NCBI GenBank assembly: GCA_028284945.1 | Contig: JANQQJ010000034.1 | Coordinates: 62,001-126,000 of the forward strand | Origin: Alphaproteobacteria bacterium | Lineage (GTDB): Bacteria > Pseudomonadota > Alphaproteobacteria > SMXS01 | Direction: 5' to 3' | Length of the DNA: 64,000 nt | Shown: piece by piece, positions 2,358 through 9,666 of the stretch | Layout of the letters: every line of letters begins with the position of its first letter | How positions within the stretch are numbered: the stretch's first letter is position 1 | Notes under the pieces: model-generated | Database searches by the model: none | What the model was told of the DNA's origin: nothing | Seen by the model: only the letters and a program-made list of their open reading frames with translations | Position numbers and translations under genes: made by a program

Positions 2358-2966
2358 TTAGTGGTGAAGCCTTTTCCTTATGTCATCCAAGGCCATAAAA
2401 AAGTACGCCGACATCAGGGCAAAGAGGGCGAGCGTCTCGCTTGATTGCTCAAAACTCATCCTTCTGCCCATGATCGTAATTATCCCTTCGCCCTCCGGTC
2501 CGGCATCACCGAGCACCGCTAATGCTGAGAGACCACCGAAGGCGGCTAAGGCCAGCAATGATTTTACCGAAAGCGTCTTGACGACGGGCAGGATCAGGCC
2601 GGCGAGCAACAGCGCTTCAAAGAAAAAGAATGCCGTTTCCGGCAAGCCGATCTGAGGCATTCGCTCATGGATGCCAAATGCGGCATCGTAGAAAATCAGC
2701 ATAAAAAGCGCGGCGGACAAAAACCAGAACCAGCGCCCGTAAGCTGAGGGCACGAGTTCAAACACAACAAGCGCCAGCCTGAAGAGGCATATGCCGCATC
2801 CAATTGCCAAAAATGCAGCGCCCAGGACGGCATTCATACCGGCCAGGTCGACGATCTGGTTTACGCCCAGGAGAACAGCAGCGCCCAACAAGAAAAAGGC
2901 CAGCCCGGGCAGTGCCAAGATCCATATGAGATTCGAGTATTTGATGATTGCTCCCCCCAGCCACAT
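2358..2966 (-). CDS. uncharacterised multispanning membrane protein
   Basis: This 202-residue hydrophobic protein has about six predicted membrane helices, for example around residues 10-34, 43-70, 80-97, 108-127, 134-150 and 178-192. I do not recognise a family. Charged residues cluster in two loops ('AFGIHERMPQIGL' and 'GRRMSFEQSSETL'). It is monocistronic and convergent with the Rieske-ThDP gene. The ATG at 2966 has no evident ribosome-binding site, whereas a strong GGGGGAG lies some 20 bases inside the frame, so the true N-terminus may be slightly shorter and use an unusual start. Confidence 0.6.
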   Translation of the reverse strand: MWLGGAIIKYSNLIWILALPGLAFFLLGAAVLLGVNQIVDLAGMNAVLGAAFLAIGCGICLFRLALVVFELVPSAYGRWFWFLSAALFMLIFYDAAFGIHERMPQIGLPETAFFFFEALLLAGLILPVVKTLSVKSLLALAAFGGLSALAVLGDAGPEGEGIITIMGRRMSFEQSSETLALFALMSAYFFMALDDIRKRLHH

Positions 2967-3133
2967 CTACGGAGCACTTTTTCCAACCCGAGTCAATTCA
3001 GGCCATGGAAACTCCAGACCATGAGGTGCGTGAACGATGCCCTGGGCGCCATGAAATGCAGAGACCGTTCCGGACACGGCGCTGTGTGGAATTCCTAACC
3101 GACATAGGACTCGCTTAGGCGATTCTGCAAGCT

Positions 3134-4393
3134 CTAACGCGGGAGCACTGGCCGCGTCGCTGCGGACGTGGTCACGGAGTCACTCGGCTCCCATTCCAGT
3201 TCCGGAATAGGAAGACCTTCCAATTCCCAAACAAGCCGAATTGTATTTCCACGTCTTCCCACAATCTGACCGTCGACGTAATCAGGCGCATACCTGAAAC
3301 GGTTGACTGCCTTTAGCGCCTCGTCGTTGAAAATTCCCTTGGGCTTCGCGGCGATGACCTTGGCGTTCACAACCATGCCTGCAGCATCCACATCAAATCC
3401 GAGTATCACAACACCTGCTATACCCCGCTCTTGTGCGATTCTCGGAAAGCGGGGGGTCACCCGGAATATAGGATAGGGCCCGGAAGCACCTTCATCCGCT
3501 CCCAGTAAGGCAATCGCTTTAGCATGCGGGGTCGCTCGATCTCTGTTCCCAAGTTCTTCGTGCGCCACGACGAGCAGTATATGGGCACCAACAACCATCT
3601 TGCTGGGCGCGTTTTCAGCTGCTTCTAGCAGTGCGAGGGCCTGTTCAAGATACGAAATGGCTCTTTTTTCGCGCTTGCGCATAACACTTACACGGCCAAG
3701 GCCAATTAGCGCGTCCCCATGAATTAGAATAGAGCTAGCATCTGCACTGTCGACAATGGAGATGGCCCTCTCAAATCGGCCCGCGGCGTCACTCCATTTT
3801 CTGATGTTTGCCTCTATATCTCCGAGACGAGTGAGAACTGACGCTACGCGAGCATCACTCGGCCCATAATTGTATTCAGAGAGCTTGAGCAGGCGCTTCA
3901 TTGTCTTACGCGCCTCCGCCATAGGCGAATATTTTTCGTCCCAGGGCGATTTGTCTGATTTTGCGACGTAACTCGACGCCAAAAAATCCAAGAGCTCTGC
4001 CAATTCTATACTGCGCTCACCGAAGACCGCCTCATAGCGTTTTAGAGCAGCTTCATAGGTTTCAATTGCATCGTCGATATGCCCTGCCAATTGATAGGTG
4101 TAGGCAAGGTTATAGGTCATCATCGCCAGCTGATCGGGTCGGTCTGCGAGCAGTGTTTCACCAAGTTCGAGCGCCCGCTTTGCATGCGGGATGGCCTCTT
4201 CAAACCGCCCTTCATCGTGTGCAGCGTTATAAGCGCGGTAGGCGGTGTTAAATTCGGTGGCGGGATCACTTTGAGCCGGTGAGGCGTGTAGCAGACCGAT
4301 GGCCGACAGCATCAAGACAAATGTATACTGTAAGATGGGTGTCCAGGACGCCCCGATGAAAGGTATGCACCTGTTGGCAAGCATGCCTAACAC
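3134..4393 (-). CDS. TPR protein with TonB C-terminal domain, paralogue 1
   Basis: This is a 419-residue exported protein. A hydrophobic N-terminal segment (about residues 18-40, ending in an A-x-A-like 'HASPAQS') is followed by TPR-type helical repeats (about 45-290, starting 'EFNTAYRAYNAAHDEGRFEEAIPHAKRALELGE'-like) and a TonB C-terminal domain (about 310-400; key residues RVTPRFPR, GVVILGFDVD, NRFRYAP). TonB-C domains contact outer-membrane receptors or act in proton-motive-force coupling. No proline-rich spacer is present, so it is not a canonical TonB. It is the last of four tandem paralogues and overlaps the next gene upstream by 7 bases, which implies cotranscription. The start is uncertain because the N-terminus differs from its sisters. 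Confidence 0.8.
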   Translation of the reverse strand: MLGMLANRCIPFIGASWTPILQYTFVLMLSAIGLLHASPAQSDPATEFNTAYRAYNAAHDEGRFEEAIPHAKRALELGETLLADRPDQLAMMTYNLAYTYQLAGHIDDAIETYEAALKRYEAVFGERSIELAELLDFLASSYVAKSDKSPWDEKYSPMAEARKTMKRLLKLSEYNYGPSDARVASVLTRLGDIEANIRKWSDAAGRFERAISIVDSADASSILIHGDALIGLGRVSVMRKREKRAISYLEQALALLEAAENAPSKMVVGAHILLVVAHEELGNRDRATPHAKAIALLGADEGASGPYPIFRVTPRFPRIAQERGIAGVVILGFDVDAAGMVVNAKVIAAKPKGIFNDEALKAVNRFRYAPDYVDGQIVGRRGNTIRLVWELEGLPIPELEWEPSDSVTTSAATRPVLPR

Positions 4394-5508
4394 CAGCCTT
4401 TGCGGCTCGACCCTTCAAAGCTCCAAGTCAATCGTACCTTTTGGCCCGGAGTTTCGACAAAAACACCATTCTGAATTCGCGGTCTGTACCGATAACGATT
4501 GACCGCCTTTAACCCAGCGCGGTCAAAGATCTTCTTGGGCTTGGATTCTATAATGTTTGCGTCCTTGACCTTCCCTTCCGCGTCAATCGTAAATTCGACG
4601 ACGATGTACCCTTCCCGGCATTTTTCAGCTGCAGAAAACGGATAGTCGTGAATGACGCGAAACAACGGAACAGGTTCACTTGTCTCCTGTCGCGGGTCAA
4701 TGCGGGCGAGGTTTTGAACATGCTCTGTTGCCTTGTCGCTTTGCCCGTCACGCTCGTATGCCTCGATCAATTGCGCTTCGACGGTCAACAGAAGCGGTAA
4801 CTCCTGCGAGTCTTGGGCCAACAGGATATTGCGCAGCTGAATAAAGCGCTTAATGGCCTTCTTGTTTGCACGACGCGACATGGCGACACGGCCATGTTCC
4901 AAGAGATTGAGATTGTGTTCCATTGCAAATTCAGGACCGGCACTCTCAGTAAGGTTTATGGCCTGACGCATGAAACCGTCAGCGCGGCGACCGTTGTTTT
5001 GCCGTAGTGAGTTGTATGCCAGCCGGCGCAAAGGTTCCGAAAGCCGTGGATCCTTTTTCCCGTAAGCTTCCTGATAGATCTCAAGTGTCTCTTCCAATAG
5101 CCGCTCGGCATGTTTGACATTCTTGGTTACAGCAAGGCGCTCATTTGCGTTGGCCAACACAAACATAGGCTGGGCCACGCGTACATCGCGGGCGCCAAAC
5201 GCTGCTTTATATCGCTCGATTGCGAGTTCCAAGACCGGCATACATGCTTCAGTCTTATGGGCAAAATACATAACCTCACCCAACAAAAAGGTCATGATTG
5301 CAACCTGCCCGGGATCGTCGGCGAGCAGCTTTTCCGCGTGTTCCAGTGCCGTTTCAGCGTGAAGAGCCGCCCGCGCAAACCGCCCCTTGTCATAAGCAGA
5401 AGTGTACGCGCGATAGGCCGCGTTGAACTCTTCAATTTGGTCGTTTTGCGCGGAAACGGGCAGCGGTGAAATCCAGATCGCCAGGGTCAAAATCAAGATA
5501 AAACGCAT
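4387..5508 (-). CDS. TPR protein with TonB C-terminal domain, paralogue 2
   Basis: This 373-residue protein has a short signal peptide (MRFILILTLAIWISPLPVSA, probable cleavage before QND), TPR-like repeats (about 25-260) and a TonB C-terminal domain (about 280-365: 'LFRVIHDYPFSA', 'GYIVVEFTIDAEGKV', 'NRYRYRPRI'). It is closest to the paralogue at 5672-6769, sharing the signal peptide style, the 'EEFNAAY' start of the mature protein and an almost identical upstream sequence. The cleavable signal suggests a periplasmic protein rather than an inner-membrane-anchored TonB. Its function is unknown; it could scaffold or substitute for TonB at one of the many receptors. The gene downstream overlaps it by 7 bases. 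Confidence 0.82.
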   Translation of the reverse strand: MRFILILTLAIWISPLPVSAQNDQIEEFNAAYRAYTSAYDKGRFARAALHAETALEHAEKLLADDPGQVAIMTFLLGEVMYFAHKTEACMPVLELAIERYKAAFGARDVRVAQPMFVLANANERLAVTKNVKHAERLLEETLEIYQEAYGKKDPRLSEPLRRLAYNSLRQNNGRRADGFMRQAINLTESAGPEFAMEHNLNLLEHGRVAMSRRANKKAIKRFIQLRNILLAQDSQELPLLLTVEAQLIEAYERDGQSDKATEHVQNLARIDPRQETSEPVPLFRVIHDYPFSAAEKCREGYIVVEFTIDAEGKVKDANIIESKPKKIFDRAGLKAVNRYRYRPRIQNGVFVETPGQKVRLTWSFEGSSRKGWC

Positions 5509-5590
5509 AATCGGCCTCGATACGCTCGGACAAAAGCTCAGCTTGTTATGCCGTCATCGTGCCAGCAAACATGCAAACGATCAAACGGCG
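5500..5590 (-). repeat. duplicated upstream module, copy A
   Basis: Bases 5500-5572 match 6761-6833 at 72 of 73 positions (C/T difference at 5525 or so). After six differing bases the match resumes with GATCAAACGGCG (5579-5590 and 6840-6851). The copy covers the first codons, leader and probable promoter of paralogue 2, and marks a recent tandem duplication or conversion that also kept the control region. Confidence 0.9.
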
Positions 5591-5671
5591 ACAAAGCCTG
5601 CAGCACGACCGTCAACAAAGAGTCAACTCTGGACAAAAATAGCCCCAACTGAAGTTGTTCCCGCGGAACCG

Positions 5672-6769
5672 TTATTCCAGTTCCCAAACAAGCCTGATCT
5701 TCTGATCGGGCGTTGCGACAAACTCACCATTTTCGATCCGCGGTTTGTAACGAAATCGATTTATCGCCTCTAATGCGGCCGAGTCGAAAATCCGGCCGGG
5801 CTGTGCCTCCAAGATTTTGGCATCCTGGACCCTGCCTTCCGTATCAATGGTGAAGCTGACAATCACCTTGCCTTCACGACCCATTTGCCGCGCGCTAAAT
5901 GGATAATCTGGAACAATCCGGAATAGCGGGATGGGCTCGCTGGTTTCTTTGTCAGGGTCTATGCGCGCCAGATACCGCACATGCTCCGTCGCTTCCTCGC
6001 TTTTGCCAGCCCGTTCATACGCCTCGATCAATTGTACTTCGATGCCAAGACGGAACGGGCTATCTGCCATCTCACTGGCCATTAACACACTGCGGGCTTT
6101 CAACAGCCTATCAATTGCCTTGCTCGGAAATCTTCGGGCAAGCGCGACACGTCCATGCTGATACAGGCTGGCTACATAATCATAAAGAAACTCTGGGCCA
6201 GCATCCTCGGTCAAACGAACAGCACGCCTCGACAACCCTTCCGCCGCCCGGCCATCTCGGGCGACCACGGCATTGTAGGCAAGTCGTCTCAAAGGTTCTG
6301 AAACCCTGGGGCTTTCCTCGCCAAAATGGTCCTCATACAGACGCAGGGCCTCTTCCAACAACCGTTCCGCGCGCCTAACATCATCTTTTCCGCCTAGTCG
6401 ATGCAGTGCATCTGCTGTGAGAAACAGCGGTTCTGCAACACGGATATTTTTTTGTCCGAATACGCCGCGATACCGCTCCAGCGCTAGTCCAGCTGTATCG
6501 ATACTCTGGCCAACTGCAAAACCTCTGAACTGAACTTCTGCCAGCAAATAAGTCATCATGGCAATTTGGGCTGGGTCATCAGTGAGCAAGTCTTCGGCAA
6601 GCGCCAGCGCCTTTTCCGCATGCGGTATCGCGTCCTTATGGCGGCCCTGATCAATCAGTTCCGAGTACGTTTTGTACGCCGCGTTGAACTCTTCAACCTG
6701 ATCGTTTTGGGCGAAAGCAGGCGGCGGTGAAATCAAGATCGCCAAAATCAAAATAAATACAAAACGCAT
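5672..6769 (-). CDS. TPR protein with TonB C-terminal domain, paralogue 3
   Basis: A 365-residue sister of the gene at 4387-5508. It has a signal peptide (MRFVFILILAILISPPPAFA, cleavage before QND), TPR-like repeats, and a C-terminal TonB domain from about residue 275 ('LFRIVPDYPFSA', 'GKVIVSFTIDTEGRV', 'NRFRYKPRI', ending 'IRLVWELE'). It is separated from paralogue 2 by 163 bases that hold copy A of the repeated upstream module, so each may have its own promoter. Its role is not recognisable from context. Sequence drift is mainly in the TPR part, so partner specificity may differ between copies. Confidence 0.82.
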   Translation of the reverse strand: MRFVFILILAILISPPPAFAQNDQVEEFNAAYKTYSELIDQGRHKDAIPHAEKALALAEDLLTDDPAQIAMMTYLLAEVQFRGFAVGQSIDTAGLALERYRGVFGQKNIRVAEPLFLTADALHRLGGKDDVRRAERLLEEALRLYEDHFGEESPRVSEPLRRLAYNAVVARDGRAAEGLSRRAVRLTEDAGPEFLYDYVASLYQHGRVALARRFPSKAIDRLLKARSVLMASEMADSPFRLGIEVQLIEAYERAGKSEEATEHVRYLARIDPDKETSEPIPLFRIVPDYPFSARQMGREGKVIVSFTIDTEGRVQDAKILEAQPGRIFDSAALEAINRFRYKPRIENGEFVATPDQKIRLVWELE

Positions 6770-6851
6770 AATCGGCCTCGATACGTTCGGACAAAAGCTC
6801 AGCTTGTTATGCCGTCATCGTGCCAGCAAACATACCGGTGATCAAACGGCG
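6761..6851 (-). repeat. duplicated upstream module, copy B
   Basis: Near-identical to 5500-5590. It contains the start codon region and leader of the third TPR/TonB-C paralogue (5672-6769). The spacing to the start codon is the same in both copies, which fits a shared promoter or leader element. Confidence 0.9.
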
Positions 6852-6865
6852 GCCTTCCGCTCTAC

Positions 6866-8068
6866 CTACCGCAGGACACGCACACCCACTTTTCTTGCGG
6901 TCGAGAGAATCTCTGCTGATGTTTCCCAGTCCAGCCGAGGATAACCCTTGCCATATATTTCCCAAATGAGCTTTACCGTCACACCCTTGGCTACTGCAAA
7001 CTGGCCCTCAATGACCTTTGGTGCATAGCGGTACTTCGACACCGCGTCGAGAGCTGATTCCTCAAAAAGTCCGCTGGGTTCGGCCGCCAGAACCTGGGGG
7101 TTTCTAACAAATCCACGCTCATCAACATCAAAACTCACCACCGCGACACCAGACGCCTCGCGCATCTGCGCCCACTTTGGAAAAATGTGTATGGGCCGAT
7201 AGATAGAACGCGGATCCGACCCGGTGCCTCGTGGATCAAGCAGTGCAATCGTTCGAACATGCGGGGTCGCTGCATCATGGTCGCCTTGAACATGAAGAAT
7301 CTTGGCCAGATGCTCATGCACGGAAATCAGCGCCTCGTGTGGCGGATCGTCCAGTGCTTCAAGAACCTCCATAGCCTGAAGCAGATAAGCGACGGCCTCG
7401 TCGTTATTTTTCCCGTCTTCAGCAATTGCCGCCAGCCGTGTCAAAGCCTGAAGATGTTGCGCTGCATACTTCGAACCCGCGTCTCTCGTCAGGTCAATAA
7501 CGGCCTCAAAGCGCTCAATCGACGCGCTTGTTTTTCCAAGAGCGTGTTCAATTTCGCCAAGGCGGACCGAAACCAGGGCAAGCTGGGGATCCTTAGGCTC
7601 AAAATTGGCACTATAAATCACGTAAACACGTTCAAAAGCTTCCATTGCCTCGCGCATGGGCGCCGTAGCCCCGCCTGGGGGCGCATTTCCAGCCCTTTGG
7701 ACGAGAGCCTCGCCCAGCGCGACCAACGGGTCGGCTACATCCAAACTGTTAACACCAAAGGCAGTTTGGTATCGGGTAACCGCTAGCTCGAGCGTTGAAA
7801 CGGCATCATCAATGCGTCCGACAAGCTGGTATGTGTCACCGAGATTAAACGTCAGAATTGCGAGCTGTTCGGGCCGGTCCGCCATTAATTGCTGGCCCAG
7901 TTCTAAAACCTCTTCCGCATAGGGAACAGCATCAGCATACCGCCCCTCACTATGGGCGGCGTTATACGCGCGATAGCCGGCGTTAAATTCGGTGACAAGA
8001 TCGGATCGAGCAGAGACCAACGAGTCCGGCAACCAAAACGAAATCATCAAAACCAAAACAAGACGCAT
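6866..8068 (-). CDS. TPR protein with TonB C-terminal domain, paralogue 4
   Basis: About 400 residues from the chosen start. The frame is open further upstream (TTG at 8107, ATG at 8104), but ATG 8068 has GAGAA at good spacing, and its N-terminus (MRLVLVLMISFWLPDSLVSA) lines up with the signal peptides of the sister genes. TPR-like repeats follow ('EFNAGYRAYNAAHSEGRYADAV'-like first repeat), then a TonB C-terminal domain from about 300 ('IYRPIHIFPKWAQ', 'GVAVVSFDVDERGFV', 'SKYRYAPK'). It most resembles paralogue 1 in length and in its 'AYNAAH' repeat, so the cluster looks like two pairs (1/4 and 2/3). Confidence 0.8.
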   Translation of the reverse strand: MRLVLVLMISFWLPDSLVSARSDLVTEFNAGYRAYNAAHSEGRYADAVPYAEEVLELGQQLMADRPEQLAILTFNLGDTYQLVGRIDDAVSTLELAVTRYQTAFGVNSLDVADPLVALGEALVQRAGNAPPGGATAPMREAMEAFERVYVIYSANFEPKDPQLALVSVRLGEIEHALGKTSASIERFEAVIDLTRDAGSKYAAQHLQALTRLAAIAEDGKNNDEAVAYLLQAMEVLEALDDPPHEALISVHEHLAKILHVQGDHDAATPHVRTIALLDPRGTGSDPRSIYRPIHIFPKWAQMREASGVAVVSFDVDERGFVRNPQVLAAEPSGLFEESALDAVSKYRYAPKVIEGQFAVAKGVTVKLIWEIYGKGYPRLDWETSAEILSTARKVGVRVLR

Positions 8069-8117
8069 AAAAGTTCTCAGTATCCCCACGCAAAACCAAC
8101 GCATCAAACGGGCGCGC

Positions 8118-8759
8118 CTAATAGAGCTTGGTCAGCCCCTCGCGCTCCGCCTCCTCAAACAACTCTTCCGGTGTTGTGTCGAGATGGGCTTGCTGGATCA
8201 TCGCCTCGCCAATATCAGGTAAATCAGCAGAGTCTCCCCAGCGTTCTGGGTCCCAGAGCCCCGACCGGATCATGCATTTCGGGCAGTGAAGAAAAGCCCG
8301 CTCCACAAAGACCACCAGCGCCAGTTCGGGCACCTTACCCTGAACCGCCATGGTTTCCAGCAGCGCTGGGTCACGCACCAGCCGCGCTTCGCCGGTGACC
8401 CTCAAGGTCTCGGTCTTACCGGGGATCAGGAAAATCAGCCCAAGTTGCGGGTTCTTCAGCAGGTTGTGAAACGTATCGACCCGCTTATTGCCGGGCCGGT
8501 CCGGGATCGCCAAATGATGGTCATCCAGGATTTTAACAAAACCCGCCGGGTCCCCCTTGGGCGACAGGTCGATATAGTTGCCAACGCCGGTCGAGGCCAT
8601 GACGACAAAAGGAGATTTGGCAATGAACGCCCTGCACACATCGTCCAGGTGATCCTGCACCTTATCGATCACCATCTGCTTGGGCGCACCGATCAGGGCT
8701 TCCAACTCGTCTACTGACGTAACAATCTCAGAGAAATTCGAGAAACGGTCATCAACCAT
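8118..8759 (-). CDS. FMN-dependent PPOX-type flavoprotein (MSMEG_1061/DR2398 type)
   Basis: This is a 213-residue protein of the split-barrel flavin-binding fold related to pyridoxamine phosphate oxidase. Family landmarks are visible: 'VIDKVQDHLDDVCRAFI', 'DLSPKGDPAGFVKILDD', 'AIPDRPGNKRVDTFHN', 'FLIPGKTETLRV' and 'HCPKCMIRSGLWDPE'. The ATG at 8759 is preferred over 8792 because GGAG stands 7 bases upstream of it. Relatives are cytosolic FMN proteins of unproven substrate, often called redox or general-stress flavoproteins. It is divergent from the gene at 8851 and stands alone. Confidence 0.88.
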   Translation of the reverse strand: MVDDRFSNFSEIVTSVDELEALIGAPKQMVIDKVQDHLDDVCRAFIAKSPFVVMASTGVGNYIDLSPKGDPAGFVKILDDHHLAIPDRPGNKRVDTFHNLLKNPQLGLIFLIPGKTETLRVTGEARLVRDPALLETMAVQGKVPELALVVFVERAFLHCPKCMIRSGLWDPERWGDSADLPDIGEAMIQQAHLDTTPEELFEEAEREGLTKLY

Positions 8760-8850
8760 AGCCTGACTCCGGATTCGCAATCTTTGTTTCACAATGAACC
8801 ACGATTAAACTGCCAGCAAACAGGACGCTGAGCAAACAGGGGGAACAACG

Positions 8851-9666
8851 ATGACAGACTGGAGCAGCTTGAGCACCGTCAGCTGGGAGGCGCTGAAGGA
8901 AGCGCGGCTGCAGGCGCATCATGCCATCCAGTGGCTGGCGAAAGCAGCACGGAACTTCGTGCCCAAACAGCCTGATGACAGCCACACCGCACTGACGTGG
9001 AACAAGGACTTGCAGGCCTTGATGATCGCGCCGATCACCGGAGGCGCCGGCACATTTGAAATGGGCATGCGGCTTGCTGACCTGGCACTGCTGATCAAAA
9101 CGGACCACGCTGTTGCCCCGGTTCCGCTGCTGGGCCATACCGACCGCCAGTTGGAGGCGTGGGTCAGCGCCTCATTGATGGAACAGTTTGTCGACCGCGA
9201 CCTGGCGATCAACTTCCCCAGGCTGCCCTATGAGGTGCCTGCGCATCCCGTAGCGGCGGACGCGAAGTATGGCGACCGCCTTGAAGAAGGCGCACTCTCA
9301 TCGCTCGCGGCCTGGTTCAACGAGGCCGCCGCCCTGTTGCAAGCCGTTCACGCTGAAGAGACGAGCGCCTCGCCGGTGCGCTGCTGGCCACATCACTTCG
9401 ACATCGCGACACTGATCAGTCTGGACGGGGAAAAATCCATCGGGGCCGGCTTGTCGCCAGGCGATGAAAACTACGCCGAACCCTATCTTTACGTAACGCC
9501 TTGGCCATACCCGGATGCCGGCGCACTGCCGCCGCTCAACATCGGAGCATGGCATACGCAGGACTACACGGCGGCAATCCTAACAGGGCCCGAGATCTCT
9601 TCTGGCGCAGGGCCGCACAGTTTTGTCGAAGAGGCCATCACCGCGTGCCGTGGCGCGCTTGGCTAG
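8851..9666 (+). CDS. conserved-looking hypothetical protein
   Basis: A 271-residue soluble protein with no signal peptide, and I cannot assign a family with confidence. Landmarks are an N-terminal helix 'ALKEARLQAHHAIQWLAKAARNF', a central 'APITGGAGTFEMGMRLADL' and a C-terminal 'RCWPHHFDIATLISLDG', followed by a tryptophan- and proline-rich 'YVTPWPYPDAGALPPLNIGAWHT'-type stretch. The HHFD motif might bind a metal, but that is a guess. GGGGGAACAACG provides a ribosome-binding site. The following gene starts inside its last codons, so the two are probably cotranslated. Confidence 0.7.
   Translation: MTDWSSLSTVSWEALKEARLQAHHAIQWLAKAARNFVPKQPDDSHTALTWNKDLQALMIAPITGGAGTFEMGMRLADLALLIKTDHAVAPVPLLGHTDRQLEAWVSASLMEQFVDRDLAINFPRLPYEVPAHPVAADAKYGDRLEEGALSSLAAWFNEAAALLQAVHAEETSASPVRCWPHHFDIATLISLDGEKSIGAGLSPGDENYAEPYLYVTPWPYPDAGALPPLNIGAWHTQDYTAAILTGPEISSGAGPHSFVEEAITACRGALG

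Follow-up and report, generated by a model that had tools for sequence, protein, structure and literature searches.

The window analysed here is a 64-kb stretch of contig C39 (positions 62001-126000) from a host genome (G000) of 3.56 Mb in 44 contigs. Near its beginning lie four tandem genes, W4, W3, W2 and W1 in their order along the reverse strand, which we refer to as the quartet (Table 1). Each encodes a protein with an N-terminal signal peptide, a region of tetratricopeptide repeats (TPR) and a C-terminal TonB domain (TonB_C), as an earlier, sequence-only reading of this DNA had proposed. In protein searches, TonB_C scored 42.5-68.9 bits (Pfam cut-off 24.6) and TPR_12 37-89 bits (Pfam cut-off 30.1) in all four proteins; because both domains exceed their cut-offs throughout, chance matches can be dismissed. 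TIGR01352 is likewise above its cut-off in all four, as is PF03544. For W1, a GTG at 4393 is an alternative to the ATG start.

Table 1. Features of the quartet region in window coordinates, with predicted signal peptide cleavage sites (/).
Feature	Coordinates	Strand	Description
W1	3134..4384	-	416 aa; signal peptide (~39 aa, AQS/DPA), TPR, TonB_C, C-terminal tail; ATG start
TonB_C of W1	3227..3454	-	PF03544, 56.5 bits (genome search), 52.7 bits (protein search)
W2	4387..5508	-	373 aa; signal peptide (20 aa, VSA/QND), TPR, TonB_C
TonB_C of W2	4432..4647	-	PF03544, 61.5 bits (genome search)
Leader of W2	5500..5570	-	nearly the same as the W3 leader; extends ~9 nt into the coding sequence
W3	5672..6769	-	365 aa; signal peptide (20 aa, AFA/QND), TPR (12 helices), TonB_C
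TonB_C of W3	5711..5911	-	PF03544, 71.6 bits (genome search)
Leader of W3	6761..6831	-	second copy of the W2 leader
W4	6866..8068	-	400 aa; signal peptide (20 aa, VSA/RSD), TPR, TonB_C, C-terminal tail
TonB_C of W4	6968..7183	-	PF03544, 45.9 bits (genome search)

The proteins fall into the two pairs that had been recognized before: W2 and W3 share 54% and W1 and W4 40% sequence identity, compared to 28-36% for the remaining pairs. Synonymous divergence (dS) could be computed for three pairs, in which it amounts to 2.5-5.8 with a nonsynonymous divergence (dN) of 0.62-0.72; it is saturated in the other three, W2/W3 included. Where computable, dN is thus far below dS, which shows that purifying selection acts on the coding sequences; together with the saturation in the other pairs, this identifies W1-W4 as old, maintained genes.

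Signal peptides were read by rule (an h-region followed by a small-x-small site) rather than with SignalP. By this rule, all four N-termini have a short h-region which ends in a small-x-small site, and an uncleaved transmembrane anchor of the kind found in TonB energy transducers is seen in none of them. The W1 signal is the weakest of the four, with a long n-region and an uncertain start. The sequence-only reading had accepted only three of the signals as cleavable; a cleavable appearance now extends to the fourth. The uncharged N-terminal run spans 12-18 residues in the quartet proteins, compared to 19 in TonB1 and TonB2, the spacer-bearing TonBs with long anchors which are encoded on contig C24 of the host genome. 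The SHLS motif, by which the TonB anchor contacts the motor, is absent from all four quartet proteins. It is also absent from the host's own TonB1 and TonB2 and thus does not discriminate, in contrast to the absence of the spacer. Mid-protein regions have at most 3-5 prolines per 40 residues in the quartet and 8-12 in the host's spacer-bearing TonBs. Neither a proline-rich nor an extended periplasmic spacer was found in any of the four proteins, in agreement with the earlier reading; a TPR solenoid is predicted instead. We consider it most likely that the quartet proteins are exported, that their signals are cleaved, and that they are soluble in the periplasm.

AlphaFold2 models were obtained for W3 and W4 from a shallow five-sequence alignment (W1-W4 and a homologue from genome G007, locus L050) and have a mean predicted local distance difference test score of 86.8 and 84.5, respectively. 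In both models, a disordered signal is followed by a 12-helix TPR solenoid and, at the C-terminus, by a TonB fold of strand, helix and strand. As whole-model fold searches were dominated by TPR matches, the comparison of TonB_C was made at the sequence level. The TonB_C of W3 matches 2k9k, the C-terminal domain of Vibrio anguillarum TonB2, at 8.2e-17 and also the TonB chains of the receptor complexes 2gsk and 2grx, which represent the C-terminal domain of Escherichia coli TonB with BtuB and FhuA. The match of W4 to 2k9k is weaker (6.4e-9). The C-terminal domains thus do fit known TonB domains. The TPR solenoid matches that of the kinesin light chains KLC1 and KLC2 (VIA-align Z ~18-21), and structures with bound cargo peptide are among these matches. 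The fold is the same and some kinesin light chain structures hold short cargo peptides, but sequence identity is only 18-22% and a common fold says nothing about a common ligand.

Full-length fusions of signal peptide, TPR and TonB_C were also found in genomes G007, G001, G209, G663, G697, G714, G580, G688, G699, G012 and G245, many of the relatives' genomes being drafts; in G639, a partial profile match turned out to be full-length on inspection. Nearly all full-length relatives begin with a signal peptide. The class to which the window belongs is represented among them, and so is at least one further class of its phylum, as exemplified by WP_152441902.1 from the gammaproteobacterium Pseudoalteromonas sp. 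THAF3, which is annotated only as "TonB family protein". This protein and its unnamed homologues have the full-length architecture of the quartet proteins, and the profile matches of the latter likewise cover signal peptide, TPR and TonB_C over the full length; in contrast to the quartet, WP_152441902.1 is a single-copy protein, and no function has been assigned to it. Among 385 genomes sampled from the class, full-length matches were confined to four (G000, G209, G012 and G245), and the family is therefore uncommon. A contig scan with W4 returned no relative, and one with the G007 protein returned only G007 itself, a Sphingomonadales metagenome-assembled genome (JALHLV01) from the same family as the host. 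A search for TPR-TonB fusions yielded no functional description in the literature collection that was searched.

A TPR-only profile was rejected as proof of common descent because generic, unrelated TPR_12 proteins score equally; common descent thus rests on the whole architecture. The deep branches of a TonB_C tree are weak. The tree supports no more than the pairs W1/W4 and W2/W3, a separate clade for the TonB_C domains encoded on C24, and a cluster of the fused proteins from elsewhere in the same phylum with those of G663 (0.91).

Synteny of the quartet is not kept in the family relatives searched. Analogous arrays do occur elsewhere, so that the arrangement recurs, and tandem arrays are found in at least three lineages. 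G663 has three genes in a row, the third of which (G663c) has a degenerate TonB_C. In G012, three genes are accompanied by one for a 130-aa signal-peptide TonB_C protein, and the genes overlap or nearly touch. G245 belongs to the genus of G012 and has three members at the same site; the two arrays (G012, L153 6467-10510; G245, L178 6986-10584) are syntenic between amidase genes.

The most surprising result of this analysis is the fast divergence of the array members. Between G012 and G245, they are only 25-36% identical, whereas most flanking genes show 72-87% identity; three other neighbours diverge too (48%, 60%, and 31%). A comparable situation is seen at a TPR-TonB_C locus on contig C40 of the host, where the genes flanking it are 65-71% identical to those of G001 while the TPR-TonB genes have no BLAST match at 1e-5. 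The TPR and TonB_C portions diverge at comparable rates. Judged from sequence comparison, the fast divergence suggests selection by changing partners.

The TPR-TonB_C gene on C40 (L021 6797-7960) and its G001 counterpart (L046 1623-2747) occupy the same conserved place, where an HpcH-like aldolase gene and genes for acyl-CoA dehydrogenases lie next to them. The fusion in G001 is broken by two in-frame stops (TAA TAG) and barely resembles the C40 copy. A sixth TPR-TonB_C protein of the host, with a signal peptide and a divergent TonB_C, is encoded by a solitary gene on contig C23 (L022 5687-6847).

The host genome has 12 TonB_C matches, compared to 1-6 in the nine other genomes listed by the search for relatives (six from the same family, three from the same class). 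As the sequence-only reading had stated for the vicinity of the quartet, no exbB or exbD gene was detected within the 64-kb window; the host has these genes elsewhere, on contigs C24 and C26, and the Tol-Pal-type genes are also on C26. The run on C24 codes, in this order, for DUF3450/TtpB-like, ExbB/TtpC-like, ExbB, ExbD, ExbD, TonB, a TtpD-like TPR protein and a second TonB, where the names DUF3450 and TtpB/C/D were given by resemblance of order and make-up, with no family model behind them. The TtpD-like TPR protein has no TonB_C match. Further along the run come a TonB_C protein of 169 aa, a protein of 350 aa that has a signal peptide and two TonB_C domains, and an anchored TPR-TonB_C protein of 463 aa.

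The TonB_C domains encoded on C24 (L020 5833-11756) have a Cys pair in common, one in an SGC motif in the first strand and the other in a ...H.AC tail; their sequences suggest that this pair might form a disulphide staple. TonB1 of G001 does not have this Cys pair.

The genome also proved to be rich in outer-membrane receptors, as claimed earlier. We counted 29 receptor plug domains, many of which are preceded by a TonB-box-like ETI/EIVVT sequence, although the reading frame was chosen automatically, which failed for several receptors. Four TonB-dependent receptors (L101, L106, L108, and L112) have a similar extra stretch before the TonB-box region and plug, approximately FVRT..L..G..L.Y...V.GQ..SG.A..G..G.L.

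The quartet proteins share the sequence and fold of their C-terminal domain with TonB2-type TonBs such as those of V. anguillarum (2k9k) and E. coli (2gsk/2grx) but differ from these by the lack of an anchor and of a proline-rich spacer and by having a TPR solenoid and a cleavable-looking signal. The pairing of TPR and TonB2 is a known functional one, as TonB2-dependent iron uptake in Vibrio vulnificus does not work without TtpD2, a separate periplasmic TPR protein (PMC6957404). The quartet proteins thus fuse two modules which cooperate as separate proteins elsewhere, minus the anchor. Like TtpD2, to which a TtpD-like gene in the C24 operon corresponds, they are exported TPR proteins; unlike TtpD, they carry their own TonB_C and are encoded on C39, outside the ttpB-ttpC-exbB-exbD-tonB operon of C24, which has its own TPR gene. 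A TonB-related force-transducer C-terminal domain and a periplasmic TPR partner also occur in the Tol-Pal system as TolA and CpoB (PMC12204202), but these are separate proteins encoded in the tol-pal operon, whereas the quartet proteins are fused.

The architecture, signals, fold, array recurrence and divergence described above are established by computation. We tentatively favour the explanation that the quartet proteins are exported, soluble periplasmic proteins which serve the Ton system as adaptors or modulators, have been tandemly amplified and diverge fast. The signal peptide would be removed from each of them in vivo, leaving the protein free in the periplasm. The TonB2-type C-terminal domain would then bind TonB boxes by adding an edge beta-strand to the TonB-box-like peptides of outer-membrane receptors, while the groove of the KLC-like TPR region would hold a second, paralogue-specific partner, either a component of the TonB2/TtpBCD motor encoded on C24 or another envelope protein. 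Having neither anchor nor SHLS motif nor spacer, the quartet proteins could not themselves transmit motor force; they would rather bring in receptors, hold on to them or compete for them, and in this way tune which receptors the anchored TonBs engage. That the C24 run also encodes an anchored TPR-TonB_C protein and a protein combining a signal peptide with two TonB_C domains supports an involvement in the Ton system, and a role as adaptors is supported by the high number of TonB_C matches in the host and by the recurring arrays. The sequence-only reading had envisaged a matchmaker between receptors and other envelope proteins; export, the missing anchor and spacer, the TonB_C fit and the receptor-rich genome agree with it, and matchmaking itself is plausible.

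Several points weigh against a function as Ton adaptors. The quartet is unlinked to exbBD or receptor genes, and the neighbours in the relatives are inconsistent. Some array members (G663c and G012b) have a degenerate TonB_C, so that TonB-box binding need not be the common function. Moreover, exported periplasmic fragments of TonB reportedly inhibit transport in E. coli, a result attributed to Howard et al. in 2001, and competition thus fits at least as well as help. Given such inhibition, a free TonB tip would need a low level, regulation, or a positive role through the TPR region.

A serious rival, which we nevertheless consider unlikely, takes TonB_C for a generic strand-capturing module that serves a non-Ton partner (Tol-Pal, BAM substrates, or peptidoglycan enzymes), the quartet proteins being CpoB-like factors of envelope assembly or scaffolding. 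This would agree with the missing linkage to Ton genes, with the degenerate domains, and with the similar divergence of TonB_C and TPR, by which the TonB-box face is not specially conserved. Yet the intact domains match TonB2 and TonB best by sequence, and the C24 run connects a Ton motor with further TonB_C proteins, one of which has a signal peptide. It is rather improbable, in our view, that the proteins are soluble competitors or decoys, which would occupy the TonB boxes of receptors, or of TonB-hijacking bacteriocins or phage proteins, and thereby hold back transport or shield the cell. A free, unanchored TonB_C, tandem amplification with fast divergence even within a genus, and lineage-specific presence would suit such a role, but no defence-system neighbourhood was seen, dN is below dS where measurable, and a pure decoy leaves the conserved TPR solenoid unexplained. 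Very unlikely, finally, is that the signals stay uncleaved as short anchors and that the proteins are TonBs of an unusual kind, in which a TPR rod replaces the proline spacer. Such a design exists in the host, as the 463-aa protein encoded on C24 combines a transmembrane segment with TPR and TonB_C, and the host's TonB1 and TonB2 manage without SHLS. It is contradicted by the position of the small-x-small sites, after 20 residues (39 in W1), and by the short uncharged runs, a pattern that extends to nearly all relatives in two classes, and also by the compact solenoid, which starts almost at the cleavage site so that little spacer remains.

Ton transport is understood as the pulling of a receptor plug by an anchored force transducer. 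As artificially made TonB fragments are said to inhibit transport, natural, conserved TonB tips without an anchor raise the question of how a cell tolerates or uses free TonB domains. It is probable that many genes for such tips simply bear the annotation "TonB family protein" or "energy transducer TonB" and are taken for additional TonBs. The arrays offer a concrete system in which the question can be tested, and the speed at which they diverge suggests that selection is partner-specific. As a speculation which we hold to be improbable, tandem arrays might encode a class of soluble "free TonB tips" that is widespread, evolves fast and has so far escaped description. Each paralogue would pair one type of TonB-box-like strand with one TPR ligand, and together they would constitute a periplasmic layer of selection or immunity that separates the Ton motor from the receptors (or from bacteriocins and phages which hijack TonB).

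Across 71 nt, the W2 leader is 99% identical to that of W3. There are no further copies in the genome, and each of the two contains an 8-codon open reading frame (MFAGTMTA). Despite these near-identical leaders, the two coding regions are mostly only 51-62% identical past the signal peptide, and their dS is saturated. An Rfam search of 2900-9000 gave no match, and the leaders fold no better than shuffled sequences. Leader identity may reflect gene conversion or a regulatory leader.

The GC content at third codon positions is 0.53-0.57 in the quartet and 0.63-0.81 in the neighbouring genes sampled. On the same strand, 50 nt upstream of W4, is a gene for a PPOX-type FMN-dependent flavoprotein (TIGR04025; 8118-8792), which is possibly co-transcribed with W4. 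Among the family relatives, this flavoprotein has no match over threshold in G002-G006 and a 43% match in G001.

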